A DNA stretch of 64,000 nucleotides from Phocicoccus schoeneichii. GTDB taxonomy: Bacteria; Bacillota; Bacilli; Staphylococcales; Salinicoccaceae. The position numbers and the translations under genes are program-made. The DNA is taken from the NCBI RefSeq assembly GCF_014635565.1, contig NZ_BMDB01000001.1, positions 682,001 through 746,000 of the forward strand. The letters run 5' to 3'. Below, one piece after another: positions 6,701-47,877 of this stretch. Under the pieces are notes generated by a model. The model did no database searches and had not been told where the DNA came from. It saw nothing but the letters and a program-made list of their open reading frames with translations. Positions within the stretch are counted from its first letter, which is position 1; every line of letters starts with the position of its first letter.

Positions 6701-7417
6701 TTGAAGTTAGAGGTGTTCTTTATGAATTCTACAATTATAAAAATGTTGATTGCCCTACTTCCGACTGCACCAGTGGTTGGCGAATACGTGGCAGATTATG
6801 AACCGAATCAAACTGAAACATCTAAAGAAGAGACAAGTAAAAATGAATCTGCTGAAACAATAGAAGATATTCAAAAGAAAGTAACAACAAGCTATCCGAA
6901 CCTTTTTAACGTGGATGAATTTAATGTGCAAGTTGGTGATTCTTTTGACCCATTAGCTGGCGTGTACGCTGTAGATAAGCGTGATGGTGATGTGACTTCT
7001 AATATTACGACGAGTGGAGAAGTAGATACGTCAAAAATTGGTGACTACTACGTGAAGTACAAAGTAACAAATAGTACTGGTGGTTGGTATGAAATCACTA
7101 GAATTGTGCACGTTTCTGAAAATCCGACGGATGAAATCAAGCCTACTCCGAAAAAATCTGAATCCGCTCAGAATAATAAGAATACACGCGTAACATTCAC
7201 AAATATTGATGATGTAGAGATTTCAGCTGGAACAGATTTTGATCCGAAAAAGGGTGTAAAAATCTACGATACAGATGGACATGACATCACGAATGATGCG
7301 GTAGTCCAAGGAGACGAAGTGGATACTTCTAAATCTGGTGAATACTATATTGCTTATACAGTGATTGATCGCTTCGGAAAAGCAAATGCTGCTGCGAGAA
7401 AGGTAACAGTGAAATAA
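6701..7417 (+). CDS. Probable surface or secreted protein with two DUF5011-like Ig-fold domains
   Basis: A 238-residue protein (TTG start, AGGAG site 6 nt upstream). An ATG at 6722 with AGAGGTG is an alternative start giving 231 residues. A hydrophobic N-terminal segment is followed by a Glu/Ser/Thr/Lys-rich linker (about 35-60). Two copies of a bacterial Ig-like domain follow, each opening with a D-F/S-F-D-P motif (VGDSFDPLAGV and AGTDFDPKKGV). Each then carries DGDVT or DGHDIT, and EVDTSKIGDYYVKYKV or EVDTSKSGEYYIAYTV. Such DUF5011 domains are common in cell-wall proteins and act as spacers or binding modules. No LPXTG sorting signal is seen. Its stop codon overlaps the start of a 26-codon membrane peptide. 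Confidence 0.8.
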   Translation: MKLEVFFMNSTIIKMLIALLPTAPVVGEYVADYEPNQTETSKEETSKNESAETIEDIQKKVTTSYPNLFNVDEFNVQVGDSFDPLAGVYAVDKRDGDVTSNITTSGEVDTSKIGDYYVKYKVTNSTGGWYEITRIVHVSENPTDEIKPTPKKSESAQNNKNTRVTFTNIDDVEISAGTDFDPKKGVKIYDTDGHDITNDAVVQGDEVDTSKSGEYYIAYTVIDRFGKANAAARKVTVK

Positions 7418-7498: not shown

Positions 7499-7537
7499 AA
7501 ATCTCCGAGCTTCTTGAATGAAGTTCGGAGATTTTTT
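7499..7537 (+). terminator. Intrinsic terminator after the small membrane peptide gene
   Basis: The stem AAATCTCCGA...TCGGAGATTT with an inner GCTTC/GAAGT extension is followed by six T. It separates the plus-strand genes from array A. Confidence 0.9.
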
Positions 7538-7581: not shown

Positions 7582-7963
7582 TCACGACTTGATTACGTTC
7601 TAAACGAGTCGTGAAATTTTGATTCAGATGAAACCACGACTTGATTACGCTCTATTCCAGTCGTGGAATCTTGATTAACAAGAAACTACGACTTGATTAC
7701 GCTCTATTCGAGTCGTGAAATTTTGATTAACAACAAACCACGACTTGATTACGTTCTAAACGAGTCGTGGAATTTTGATTCAGATGAAACTACGACTTGA
7801 TTACGCTCTAAACGAGTCGTGGAATTTCGATTAACAACAAACCACGACTTGATTACGTTCTATTCGAGTCGTGGAATTTCAATTAACAATAAACCACGAC
7901 TTAATTACGCTCTATTCGAGTCGTGGAATCTTGATTAACAAGAAACTACGACTTAATTACGCC
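7582..7963. repeat. Array A: eight 52-bp tandem palindromic repeats (last one partial)
   Basis: Units begin at 7582, 7634, 7686, 7738, 7790, 7842, 7894 and 7946, an exact 52-bp period. Each full unit has a 33-bp palindromic part with arms CCACGACT and AGTCGTGG around a 17-nt centre (TGATTACGTTCTAAACG or TGATTACGCTCTATTCG), then a 19-bp A/T-rich linker. The first unit carries a paired change in both arms (TCACGACT / AGTCGTGA). The eighth unit breaks off inside the stop codon of the minus-strand DUF4129-like gene. The region lies between convergent genes and contains no ORF. No sequence-variable spacers exist, so this is not a CRISPR array. Confidence 0.95.
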
Positions 7964-9166
7964 CTATTCTTCTTTTTCCTCTCTTAACTTTTCTTTAATT
8001 TTATCTTTTACTGTATTGATGTGCGCTTTGAACGCTGAAACATCCGTGTAAGAGTGTGATCCGTAGCGCACCTTGCTATAGATTTCGAGTTCTTCAGCGC
8101 TAAAGATGTCAGTAAAGCCTTCTCGCTCAATCCATTCTTCAATCGTTTCATCAGAAAAACGACCGACCCCCATCTTTTTCGTCCATCGCTCAAAGTCAAA
8201 GTACACCTCTCGAATTGGATCATCTGGTTTTACTAATCTAATACGTTGTCTCAGTTTATCTGTAATTGCAGGAACAACCTTTACCTCAGGCTTATCTTTA
8301 TCGTATACTTCTTCATTTTTACTTCTCATCACTAAAATAATAACAGTTATAATAACCGCAACTACGATAAAACCAATCACGATCATATCCAGTGGTAGAT
8401 TCTCCATAAGACTCTTTTGCTCTTTCATATTAATTAAATCAAGTACAGTCTCATCAAGTCCTTCCTCTGTGCGCTCTTCTTCAGAAATCTCAGGAGTTAC
8501 AAAATCTAAGTTTTCCATCCACAAGAAGAGTGGTTTCATCAAGAAAAAAATACCGTTCAAGACACCAATGAGTGCAAGTTTCAATAGTCCAGTGATTCCT
8601 TTAACTAGAACGGCTACGACACCACCGCCAATAATTAGAATTAAACCTACCGGGATAATCGTCTTCAGATAATCCGAAAACTTAACGGTGCTATCTGTCA
8701 TTTGCTCCACAATTTTTAACATAAAATAAAGAATCAGTTGAGCAATAAACATCCAAGCGTAAAAATAATAGTTATCTGCACTCAATATTCCCGTTCGAAT
8801 AAATTGAGATAAAATCACGACAATCAGTGATATACCAATTGCTTCTTGTTGTCTATCTGTCGTACGATCCATATAGAGTCTGTCAAAACGAAAAACTGAT
8901 AATACACTATACAAAATAGCGACAAGTAGATGGTTACCAACAATCAAAAACAATACAAAAAATACTGGTATTAGAAAATAAAGAATGTACGATCTCGCTT
9001 TACCTGTAATCACTGCGCCAATAAAAAATACGAACACAAGAACAATACTATTCAAAAATAAATGAGGTGCTTCGTTAAAGACAGCGTTCATTTGTGCAAG
9101 AATGATAATCACTGTCATCATTTCAATCACATATTTTGGAAAAAGTTCTTTAAATAAACGGATCAT
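7964..9166 (-). CDS. Membrane protein with C-terminal DUF4129-like domain
   Basis: A 400-residue protein and the last gene of a moxR-DUF58 operon (4-bp overlap with the DUF58 gene). The N-terminal half has about six to seven hydrophobic segments (residues 10-215). A further transmembrane segment (about 260-283, DMIVIGFIVVAVIITVIILV) leads to a cytoplasmic DUF4129-like tail with RLVKPDDPIREVYFDFERW. Related operons in Bacillus end in a longer protein carrying a transglutaminase-like core between the membrane part and DUF4129. That core is absent here. The function is unknown; these operons are thought to act on the cell envelope or on protein maturation. Confidence 0.85.
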   Translation of the reverse strand: MIRLFKELFPKYVIEMMTVIIILAQMNAVFNEAPHLFLNSIVLVFVFFIGAVITGKARSYILYFLIPVFFVLFLIVGNHLLVAILYSVLSVFRFDRLYMDRTTDRQQEAIGISLIVVILSQFIRTGILSADNYYFYAWMFIAQLILYFMLKIVEQMTDSTVKFSDYLKTIIPVGLILIIGGGVVAVLVKGITGLLKLALIGVLNGIFFLMKPLFLWMENLDFVTPEISEEERTEEGLDETVLDLINMKEQKSLMENLPLDMIVIGFIVVAVIITVIILVMRSKNEEVYDKDKPEVKVVPAITDKLRQRIRLVKPDDPIREVYFDFERWTKKMGVGRFSDETIEEWIEREGFTDIFSAEELEIYSKVRYGSHSYTDVSAFKAHINTVKDKIKEKLREEKEE

Positions 9167-44928: not shown

Positions 44929-45705
44929 TTATGAATGTGCTTCTTTTTGGGCTTTTTTCGCTTTTTTCTTATCTCGTCTTTTTATCAGAATAATGCTGAT
45001 TTCATAGAGTAAGATCATTGGTGAAAGTGTAATTAAATGCGTGAATAAGTCAGGCGGCGCAATGAGAGCCGTCACGACGAGTAGTATAAAATACGCATAT
45101 TTTCTCATATTTTGCATTATCTCTGCATCGAGTAGTCCAATATAATTTAAGAATAAAATCACGACTGGCAACTGGAATATCAAGCCAAATGGAATTGTCG
45201 TCATTAGTAAGAAGCTCATGTATTCATCTGCCGTAACAAGTACGTCAAAGTTACGTTCACCCATAGAGATTAAGAAAAAATAACTGATTGGATGGACAAT
45301 GAAATATCCAAAAGCTACACCAGCAATAAATAGGACTAACATACCGGGTAAACTACTTTTAATGAACATCGTTTCACGTTCGACAAGTCCGGGCTTCATG
45401 AATTGCCATAAGAACCAACAGATAAAAGGAATCGATAATCCTAAACTGATTGCCCCAGAAGTCTGTATGTAGAAACGAATGACTTCGAACGGACCGAGTA
45501 CAACAATATCCGCACCCTTAGACACAAAAGGGAACCACCAAGTCACAGTCGCAAAAACAATGACAAACCAAATAACGATAACAATTGCACTCTTGATGAC
45601 CACCGCACGTAAATCCATGAGATGCTCAGTCAAGCTCGCCATATTATCTTCTTGCGTAAGCTTTCTGCGTTTCTGTTTGACAATCTCTGTCTCTTTTTCT
45701 TCCAT
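44929..45705 (-). CDS. tatC: Twin-arginine translocase subunit TatC
   Basis: A 258-residue membrane protein with six helices. The cytoplasmic N-terminus has the TatC recognition region MASLTEHLMDLRAVV with its conserved Glu and Arg. A later conserved block is FWQFMKPGLVERE. It binds the twin-arginine signal of folded exported proteins. No tatA is adjacent, which is unusual because Firmicute Tat pairs are usually neighbours. The ATG at 45705 follows CAGGTGA; a GTG three codons upstream lies within that site. A clear Tat substrate is encoded at 49706-50482. Confidence 0.95.
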   Translation of the reverse strand: MEEKETEIVKQKRRKLTQEDNMASLTEHLMDLRAVVIKSAIVIVIWFVIVFATVTWWFPFVSKGADIVVLGPFEVIRFYIQTSGAISLGLSIPFICWFLWQFMKPGLVERETMFIKSSLPGMLVLFIAGVAFGYFIVHPISYFFLISMGERNFDVLVTADEYMSFLLMTTIPFGLIFQLPVVILFLNYIGLLDAEIMQNMRKYAYFILLVVTALIAPPDLFTHLITLSPMILLYEISIILIKRRDKKKAKKAQKEAHS

Positions 45706-45743
45706 AATATTCACCTGAAATCGTGTAATGATATTAACTAGAA

Positions 45744-45765: not shown

Positions 45766-46060
45766 ACCGATTGAAGTTGGTTGATTGGTTGTGTGAATGA
45801 ATTAATTTTTGCGCGAGTGAGTTGTTGCTCACTTGAGCGAGTTTTTGTTTTGTGATTTATTTCACTAAATAACTGCAAATCAATCACTTTATCGATTAAA
45901 ACATCACGAAAACCCCAACTTATTCTATTATTTAATAATACTATGCATTTTCGATTAAAACAAATGTGTGGGTGAGGCTATACTATGCCAGATTTACATA
46001 TCAATCTGCTAAACGCGGTCACTAATTGTGTGACATATGATTATTAGGAACTTATCATCA
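45766..46060. other. Gene-free AT-rich stretch before array B
   Basis: No ORF with coding character was found on either strand. It contains an imperfect hairpin near 45812-45840 (AGTGAG / CTCACT) followed by a T-rich tract on the plus strand, and otherwise nothing recognisable. Confidence 0.6.
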
Positions 46061-46843
46061 CGTGGGTTTCGAGATTTCTTTGTTTAGCATGATATTTAAA
46101 ATCTAATCAGGACGTGGGTTTCGAGATTTCTTTATTTAGCATGATATTTAAAATCTAATCAGGACGTGGTTTATCTTAACTCAATTTCACAACCTGATTA
46201 AGATCTATTCAAGGTGTGGTCTACTCAAGACACAAGTTCCACGACTTGATTAAGGTCTATTCAAGGTGTGGTTTACCCATACAACAACTTCCACGACCTG
46301 ATTAACGTCTATTCAAGGTGTGGTTTACCCATACAACAACTTCCACGACCTGATTAACGTCTATTCAAGGTGCGGTTTACCCAGACAACAACTTCCGCGA
46401 CTTGATTAACGTCTATTCAAGGTGCGGTTTACCCATACAACAACTTCCACGACTTGATTAACGTCTATTCAAGGTGCGGTTGGCCCATAGCACAACTTCC
46501 ACGACTTGATTAAGGTCTATTCAAGGTGTGATTTACCCATACAACAACTTCCACGACTTGATTAACGTCTATTTAAGGTGCGGTTTACCCATACAACAAC
46601 TTCCACGACCTGATTAACGTCTATTCAAGGTGCGGTTTACCCATACAACAACTTCCACGACTTGATTAACGTCTATTCAAGGTGAGGTTTACCCAGACAA
46701 CAACTTCCGCGACTTGATTAACGTCTATTCAAGGTGTGATTTACCCATACAACAACTTCCACGACCTGATTAACGTCTATTCAAGGTGTGGTTTACCCAT
46801 AGCACAACTTCCACGACCTGATTATGTTCGAAACGAAGATATG
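46059..46843. repeat. Array B: 52-bp tandem palindromic repeats, related to array A
   Basis: Thirteen units start at 46187 and then every 52 bp to 46811, with no drift. Each has a 33-bp imperfect palindrome (CCACGACTTGATTAACG, TCTATTCAAGGTGTGG) and a 19-bp linker (TTTACCCATACAACAACTT). Three preceding units of another type (near 46061, 46113 and 46165; CGTGGGTTTCGAGATTTC...) also repeat at 52 bp and end in ATCTAATCAGGACGTGG, an inverted form of the unit arm. The last unit (46811) switches to an array-A-like centre (GTTCGAAACGAAG). Some units carry paired arm changes (CCGC with GCGG). The array ends 24 bp from the 3' end of the NERD gene. Confidence 0.95.
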
Positions 46844-46866: not shown

Positions 46867-47877
46867 TCAAGATTTTTTTATATAATACGAGCTACGCCCT
46901 TTTTTGATTAACTCATATCTCGATAAAAGTATTTTAGTTAAAAACTTTCTTGTAATACATCCACCAACCCATTCCAACACCAGCGTCAGGGTCAGCTCCT
47001 TATCAGGAAATAGATATTCTAGTTCTGCAACGTTTCGTAGTATGGCGTCATAAAGTTTTTCTCGAACGCCACACATATTGCAATAGATAAACTTCCTGTC
47101 TCCAGTGCTTCTGCGCTCCATCTCACCATCACACTTCGCACAGGTTATGCATTTCTTCAAATCTTCGTATTCGTACACGATCTTTTTCTCATATGCAGAT
47201 GTTTCGAGGCGTAGCGAATTCAATCTCTCAAAAATCTTTTTATGTCGCTCTCCAATTCTACACGGCTTCTGATTTAACTCCGCCACATATCTTCTCGTTT
47301 GTGACAAAAACACGATTCGACTATCTACTCGTGCATGATATAGATAAAAACACGGATGCGTATAAATGACTAACGCCACAATTTTCATACGAATATTCTC
47401 TCTCATAAATAATTTCTCTAATCTATCAGTCGCTCGAGCCAGTTGTGCCAATGGGTTCGGATATTTCTTCTTGGAATCCACCTTGGTTATGTATTCATCA
47501 CCCGAAATAAAATCTCCCTCATAATGCTTCACTTCAATCAACAAACACTCATACTCAAACATCACTAAAAAATCGATTTGGCATTCGCTGCCATCAATCT
47601 CGAACAAAAAATCTTCCAATACAAACGGCTGAACTTCCAACCTCTCAGACAACACTTTCGACACATACGTTTCCCCTTCATCGCCCGTTCTTTTAAGAAA
47701 TAATAATTTAGACTCAGAAGTATTGAGTGCCATACGTTTCTTCAAAATTTCTAACTTGTTCAATCCACGGTTCACCTCTGTTTTTATCTTGAGTGAACCA
47801 CAACGACACCAATAATGCGAGTTGCGATTTGATAGTAGTTGCATCAAATATTTAAATTTCACAAGATAAATACCCAC
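46867..47877 (-). CDS. NERD-domain nuclease-like protein with C-terminal zinc ribbon
   Basis: A 336-residue protein. A NERD (PD-(D/E)xK-like) domain occupies about residues 65-175: GDEGE, then QIDFLVMFEYECLLIEVKHY with the Asp and ExK catalytic pattern. A zinc-ribbon-like segment follows (CITCAKCDGEM ... YCNMCG, about 240-270). The C-terminal tail (about 290-336) looks like a helix-turn-helix-like basic region. The start is uncertain: the longest frame opens with GTG at 47877, without a good ribosome site. A WCRC motif near residue 23 might be a second metal site if that start is right. NERD proteins are thought to process DNA. It abuts array B. Confidence 0.78.
   Translation of the reverse strand: MGIYLVKFKYLMQLLSNRNSHYWCRCGSLKIKTEVNRGLNKLEILKKRMALNTSESKLLFLKRTGDEGETYVSKVLSERLEVQPFVLEDFLFEIDGSECQIDFLVMFEYECLLIEVKHYEGDFISGDEYITKVDSKKKYPNPLAQLARATDRLEKLFMRENIRMKIVALVIYTHPCFYLYHARVDSRIVFLSQTRRYVAELNQKPCRIGERHKKIFERLNSLRLETSAYEKKIVYEYEDLKKCITCAKCDGEMERRSTGDRKFIYCNMCGVREKLYDAILRNVAELEYLFPDKELTLTLVLEWVGGCITRKFLTKILLSRYELIKKGRSSYYIKKS

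Follow-up and report, generated by a model that had tools for sequence, protein, structure and literature searches.

Known Intergenic Repeat Systems

Two described systems come closest to the tandem arrays reported here, the STAR elements and the BIME-2/REP arrays. STAR elements occur in the same bacterial order and are likewise intergenic direct repeats of unknown function with locus-specific spacers, which occupy different loci in each species and change in copy number by whole units (PMC3532100). They differ in their core, a 14-bp GC-rich sequence (TNTGTTGNGGCCC) in place of the 33-bp bipartite dyad of the present arrays, and in their spacing (53–63 bp, SD 1.4), which varies within genomes, whereas the arrays keep a fixed whole-turn period. 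Nine genomes of another family of the order carry STAR elements, and paired STAR cores were absent from all 33 genomes of the array-bearing family. Since STAR spacing is variable, intergenic direct repeats in these bacteria do not keep a fixed spacing as a matter of course. Taken with gene content, G+C and genome sizes, the occurrence of STAR elements suggests that the genomes compared belong to the order Staphylococcales and that the array-bearing family resembles Salinicoccus and Jeotgalicoccus. The STAR spacers of several genomes (G082, G087, G089, G095, G110 and others) contain inverted repeats, e.g., GAATTTC...GAAATTC, and these vary in concert from unit to unit, a sign that the spacer may form a hairpin.

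The BIME-2/REP arrays of enterobacteria and pseudomonads are also tandem, imperfect palindromes in extragenic positions near gene 3′ ends, and BIME-2 binds gyrase, but inter-REP segments vary substantially in length while the period of the present arrays is fixed (PMC2817692). The arrays share the extragenic siting near 3′ ends by which REP/BIME sequences are recognized; the ends of their consensus unit are CCACG and CGTGG, and the tag at one end of a REP palindrome is GTAG or CGTC (PMC3733652). REP arrays go together with a RAYT transposase, and the array genomes checked have none: the Y1 transposase family (PF01797) was found in 3 of the 33 family genomes and was absent from G000, G001, G003, G010 and G014. 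One genome of genus label g6 (G027) has eight partial Y1-transposase matches, several of them at contig ends, and only one pair of ATGA-type array dyads. A literature search brought up no relevant account of arrays of this kind from Jeotgalicoccus or Salinicoccus.

A third comparison is with eukaryotic satellite DNA. Alpha satellite resembles the arrays here in keeping one unit length, in being homogenised locally, in forming dimers and trimers of higher order and in turning over quickly between relatives; its CENP-B box would find a counterpart in a putative protein site within the unit. The arrays differ in being small (about 3 to 15 units), bacterial, intergenic and dispersed at gene ends.

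Organization of Arrays A and B

The window studied is a 64,000-nucleotide stretch of the Phocicoccus schoeneichii genome (positions 682,001–746,000 of contig C1, NZ_BMDB01000001.1, assembly GCF_014635565.1; genome label G000), a draft of 1.78 Mb in 11 contigs that is 92% complete. It carries two tandem arrays, A and B (Table 1), and a scan of all 64 kb detected neither an Rfam family nor a tRNA. A first-pass annotation had described array B as a 52-bp array related to array A, with cores that align and linkers that differ, and both points were borne out. Tandem Repeats Finder gives a period of 52 for array A (7583–7969, 7.4 copies) and for the two blocks of array B (46060–46169, 2.1 copies; 46188–46824, 12.2 copies, 92% match, 0% indels), and the core of A (CCACGACTTGATTACGCTCTATTC) aligns with that of B (CCACGACTTGATTAACGTCTATTC), unlike the linkers (AATTTTGATTAACAAGAAA and TTTACCCATACAACAACTT, respectively). 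Followed site by site, the main block of array B comprises 13 sites, counting the broken last unit, and every step is 52 bp. The first three units (starting at 46033, 46085 and 46137) are indeed of a third type (right arm, e.g., TAATCAGGACGTGG), and the step from them to the main block is 50 bp instead of 52, a 2-bp break in register. The last unit, at 46811, reads CCACGACCTGATTATGTTCGAAACGAAG and has the array-A-like centre attributed to it (compare ACGTTCTAAACGAG in array A), with its right arm broken.

Both arrays had been placed at the 3′ end of a minus-strand gene with the broken unit on the gene side, and this is so: 24 bp separate the broken unit of array B from the NERD-domain ORF, and the broken unit of array A includes the stop codon of ORF 7964–9166, also on the minus strand, so that array and coding sequence overlap at 7964–7969. 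The other flanks are unlike: array A faces the 3′ end of a convergent plus-strand gene, whereas the first unit of array B lies some 320 bp from tatC, at the 5′ end of that gene. Between the convergent gene and array A lies a likely intrinsic terminator, missed by a consensus terminator scan, and since it precedes the array, the arrays do not look like terminators themselves.

Table 1. Features of the window (window coordinates), other 52-bp family arrays of the same genome, and arrays of related genera.
Feature	Position	Strand	Description
Ig-like surface protein ORF	6701..7417	+	Pfam PF16403; convergent with array A
Likely intrinsic terminator	7499..7534	+	15-nt inverted repeat, then T-run; between ORF 6701–7417 and array A
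Array A	7582..7969	none	Seven complete dyads, 52-bp spacing, plus broken unit
400-aa ORF	7964..9166	-	No Pfam match; 3′ end inside last unit of array A
tatC	44929..45714	-	Pfam PF00902, E 4.5e-49
Array B, first block	46033..46169	none	Three older, third-type units, 52 bp apart
Array B, main block	46187..46824	none	12 complete 33-bp dyads, exact 52-bp spacing, plus left arm of broken last unit
Array B, broken last unit	46811..46843	none	Array-A-like centre, no intact right arm
NERD-domain (nuclease-related) ORF	46867..47877	-	Pfam PF08378, E 1.4e-15
G000 family arrays, contig C1	41 kb, 77 kb, 481 kb, 563 kb, 690 kb (A), 728 kb (B), 893 kb
G000 family arrays, other contigs	C2:199.5 kb, C2:263 kb, C3:18.5 kb, C3:204 kb, C4:169 kb
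Arrays of G010 (genus label g6)			41–42 bp, one of 51 bp; other sequences
Arrays of G014 (g6)			41 and 51 bp; other sequences
Arrays of G003 (g3)			41 and 51 bp; other sequences
Array of G007 (g2)			51 bp; other sequence

The 52-bp Family in the P. schoeneichii Genome

Arrays A and B belong to a set of about 12 dispersed 52-bp arrays with the common bipartite dyad CCACG-N4-GATTA-N5-TAATC-N4-CGTGG, a count obtained by pattern search plus sampled stretches, which may overlook arrays too diverged to fit the pattern. With up to three mismatches allowed to the 20 specified bases, the genome contains 78 dyad sites and none for a reversed-pattern control, which excludes chance; the same search gave no sites in 59 relatives. 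BLASTN with array B as query also found no match in these relatives, but the idea of a genome-private feature, taken from that empty result, was overturned when the repeat finder, run on the relatives' DNA, located arrays of 41 and 51 bp. Across 84,980 species, the exact dyad pattern has two single matches, both outside any such tandem array, and neither a pattern scan of IMG/VR nor BLASTN against phages and plasmids gave a match.

The spacing of the sites is nearly uniform, with 100 of the 104 successive distances being 52 bp, one 104 bp, and the others 50, 103 and 124 bp. When exact GATTA dyads were paired with 37–67 bp allowed, there were 33 pairs per strand, at 52 bp in every match listed. 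The divergence observed between arrays would be expected to bring indels with it, but these are all but absent. Higher-order repeats, dimers and trimers, also occur.

A further array at C2:204657–204998 (L074:9658–9999) has a different dyad, GCGC-AAC-GAT...ATC-TTC-GCGC, and the same 52-bp period; aligned by eye, its CG and GAT blocks lie as far from the dyad centre as those of the main family. Diverged, unit-like pieces (GAATAGGACAT...ATTACATGTC) occur just outside arrays (L073:4750–4950 and L075:4880–4975), as if older units decay at array edges.

Conservation within the Unit

Conservation was computed over 111 units from 12 arrays, with equal weight per array. Averaged per column, the information content of the two outer blocks is 1.63 and 1.47 bits and that of the inner blocks 1.47 and 1.41 bits; it falls to 0.67 and 0.80 bits in the N4 stretches, 0.43 bits in the centre and 0.44 bits in the linker. 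Between arrays, the outer blocks are 74% identical, the inner blocks 87%, the N4 stretches 44%, the centre 30% and the linker 40%; linkers are locus-specific, with 72% identity within an array. They are not the unique spacers of a CRISPR array, since those of one array are this similar to each other and each array has its own. The flanking proteins scanned included no cas family.

Folded on the dyad, the half-site is symmetric and reads CCACG-W-S-W-Y-GATTA. At its positions 6–8 (W, S), 64% of the differences between arrays are A/T or C/G flips, compared with 32–42% in the centre and linker, a tolerance that would suit a protein in contact with the minor groove, so that such a contact may be supposed at these positions. 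The first-pass account of the palindrome needs a correction, in that its conservation is bipartite: it is missing from positions 6–9 and from the centre, and the linker keeps a constraint at its A/T-rich edges. The accompanying proposal, that selection acts on period and palindrome rather than on the linker, is partly supported by the identities of arms (74–87%) and linkers (40%), by a period that is invariant in this genome and by the siting of arrays at gene 3′ ends here and in relatives, but selection itself is an interpretation, and the period may also have been inherited passively.

Pairing between the arms is not above the expectation from column composition in the conserved blocks. There is a weak excess at N4 (0.50 versus 0.447 expected, p = 0.03), where the stretch pairs in only half of the units. 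With pairing otherwise within expectation, it is not chiefly a hairpin that is conserved. The units do fold into predicted stem-loops (z down to −6), with stable predicted hairpins in most arrays, and a per-unit dyad test on the array consensuses, which is underpowered, gave p ≤ 0.05 in 16 of 50 cases.

Arrays in Related Genomes

The sister species G001 has syntenic orthologues at the compared array loci (74–98% protein identity) and possesses one short 52-bp array of related sequence (G001:C4:17470–17610). At seven orthologous intergenic loci that are occupied in P. schoeneichii, no array was detectable in G001, which shows that turnover is fast, and no clean junctions were found at the insertion boundaries between the two genomes.

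Relatives in other genera of the same family carry arrays of other sequences (Table 1); by genus label, arrays occur in g1, g2, g3 and g6 and appear to be absent from g5. The relatives were surveyed with the repeat finder on sampled stretches of uneven coverage, and in all the sampled DNA of the family the noncoding arrays (at least 3 copies, period at least 20 bp, automatic classing) had periods of 41 (n = 25), 42 (n = 1), 51 (n = 2) and 52 bp (n = 12), and no others. Two arrays first classed as coding have periods of 42 bp (G010, L159:6595) and 51 bp (G003, L176:17865). No array of at least three copies was found in the sampled DNA of G004 (140 kb), G032 (120 kb) and the out-of-family G036 (100 kb). 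Grouped loosely by sequence, the arrays form nine clusters, all at 41, 42, 51 or 52 bp, the chance of which is about 7e-8 if periods were uniform over 36–60 bp, a figure that is only indicative because the four values came from the same data. Independent pattern searches agree. Pairs of ATGA-N7-TCAT with 26–56 bp allowed were 40–42 bp apart in all matches listed for 12 genomes, in which a strand had as many as 173 pairs, and among the matches listed ACAACGG dyads with about 25–57 bp allowed were 41 bp apart.

The DNA helix has about 10.4 bp per turn, and periods of 41–42 and 51–52 bp thus correspond to four and five helical turns; outside the genus the sequences change and the period does not drift. 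Neither the 52-bp period nor this particular palindrome, on which the first-pass annotation suggested selection, is the fixed feature: related genera use other dyads at 41–42 or 51 bp, and the apparent rule is therefore one of whole helical turns. Variable periods in other genomes had been named as evidence against the first-pass account, and in the DNA sampled the variation is confined to these quantised values.

In G010, several seemingly unrelated dyad families coexist. The asymmetric units of ACAACGG-type arrays on its contig C1 are oriented alike relative to the inferred direction of replication at 16 of 17 loci (Fisher p = 6e-4); a general purine skew as the cause of array orientation was unsupported across all arrays (rho 0.17, p = 0.26). 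Units of three G010 arrays (L155:12419–12844, L189:15002–15340 and L196:4539–4670) contain TTCCCGGGAA, TTCCCGGG or the like, motifs that resemble the core of the Noc-binding site.

Position Relative to Genes

The arrays of P. schoeneichii and its relatives are concentrated at gene 3′ ends, as the siting of A and B had led the annotation to ask. With genes defined by simple ORF calls, convergent gaps account for 24 of the 43 array loci, compared with 14% of other gaps (OR 7.8, p = 8e-10), and only two loci lie in divergent gaps, for which the background is 26% (p = 8e-4). In codirectional gaps, the array is nearer the 3′ end in 14 of 17 cases, and the median distance from an array to a gene 3′ end is 69 bp. 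The G010 sample has 16 arrays in convergent gaps and 20 convergent gaps without one. In P. schoeneichii the neighbouring genes are ordinary (comK, nuclease, trmB, rplS, nrdF, yidC, murT, csp and others, by Pfam-based names), and a tie to particular gene functions was discarded, as these neighbours are functionally unrelated and mostly housekeeping.

Interpretation of the Arrays

Bipartite conserved half-sites, a free centre and linker, and whole-turn spacing are together best fitted if protein dimers line one face of the DNA in a row, and our tentative preference, from sequence comparisons, is that the arrays are rows of dimer-binding sites phased in this way, resembling BIME-2 but without a RAYT. 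Each 52-bp unit would be a symmetric site for a candidate dimeric protein that binds double-stranded DNA, with the half-site CCACG-WSWY-GATTA offering two base-specific blocks about one helical turn apart and a middle in which A/T and C/G flips are tolerated, as they would be where the protein meets the minor groove. With dyads whole helical turns apart, bound dimers would align on one face, where they could touch or could bend the DNA coherently. Positive supercoils meet between convergent genes, and arrays at 3′ ends, mostly in such convergent positions, may serve as topological or nucleoid nodes or as insulators, like the gyrase-binding arrays of BIME-2. Slippage or unequal exchange would multiply and homogenise the copies within an array, leaving linkers to drift at each locus while dyad and phase are kept.

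Several observations speak against phased binding. The unrelated-looking dyad families of G010 would call for several proteins or for loose recognition, a period of 41 bp is 3.94 turns and not exactly 4, and the weak excess of pairing at N4 would be compatible with some role for a hairpin. Arrays that change by whole units can pass on their period passively, and convergent 3′ ends are also where neutral insertion does least harm.

These last two points are the core of the main rival, neutral or selfish satellite DNA, in which a few ancestral arrays grew and shrank by whole-unit slippage, kept their period passively and survived at harmless convergent 3′ ends, with no protein needed. It would account for linkers that are locus-specific yet homogeneous within an array, for the dimer and trimer repeats, for the functional unrelatedness of the neighbouring genes and for a turnover that leaves G001 without a detectable array at seven loci. 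We nevertheless consider it less likely, given that the dyad arms are far more alike between arrays than the linkers, that almost none of the expected indels are seen, that dissimilar sequence families in the same genomes have periods quantised one helical turn apart, and that STAR elements do drift in length.

A non-autonomous, REP/BIME-type mobile element, its single-strand hairpins recognised, spread and amplified by an enzyme other than RAYT, is improbable. Imperfect palindromes in intergenic arrays near 3′ ends, the stem-loop folds, the one-way orientation of ACAACGG-type arrays in G010 and the N4 pairing excess would all suit such an element, but five genomes of the comparison (including P. 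schoeneichii) lack a Y1 transposase or RAYT, the conserved arm blocks show no covariation beyond composition, and the comparison with G001 revealed no clean insertion junctions.

Still less probable is an element acting in RNA, where hairpins in the transcript would end transcription or protect mRNA 3′ ends. Stable predicted hairpins just past stop codons are what this would require, but array A already has a terminator ahead of it, the units are not followed by T-runs, the N4 stretch is paired in only half of them, and a helical-turn period is meaningless for RNA. Sites of a tyrosine recombinase, to which the 33-bp dyad (about the size of loxP core sites), its inverted arms and its asymmetric centre could be likened, are very improbable, as the centres differ between arrays, no cargo lies between sites, and counts of the phage-integrase family (PF00589) do not follow the arrays, being three in array-rich G010, three in G032, without arrays in 120 kb, and seven in P. 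schoeneichii.

Returning to protein dimers phased on one face, an extension of that reading to the whole family is possible, and we put it forward with low confidence: chromosomal arrays of dissimilar palindromes at whole-turn spacing (four or five turns), placed at convergent gene ends, might form satellite-like nucleoprotein structures by cooperative assembly on one face, with phase conserved and not sequence. If spacing rather than sequence is what is kept, the arrays would allow the part of helical phasing in chromosome organisation to be tested on natural material, with periods that differ by one helical turn in the same and sister genomes and with many natural sequence variants. The relatives of staphylococci would then have a BIME-2-like element that needs no RAYT, pull-down would offer a direct route to the candidate DNA-binding protein or proteins, and there would be a handle on why STAR-like intergenic repeats of unknown function persist.
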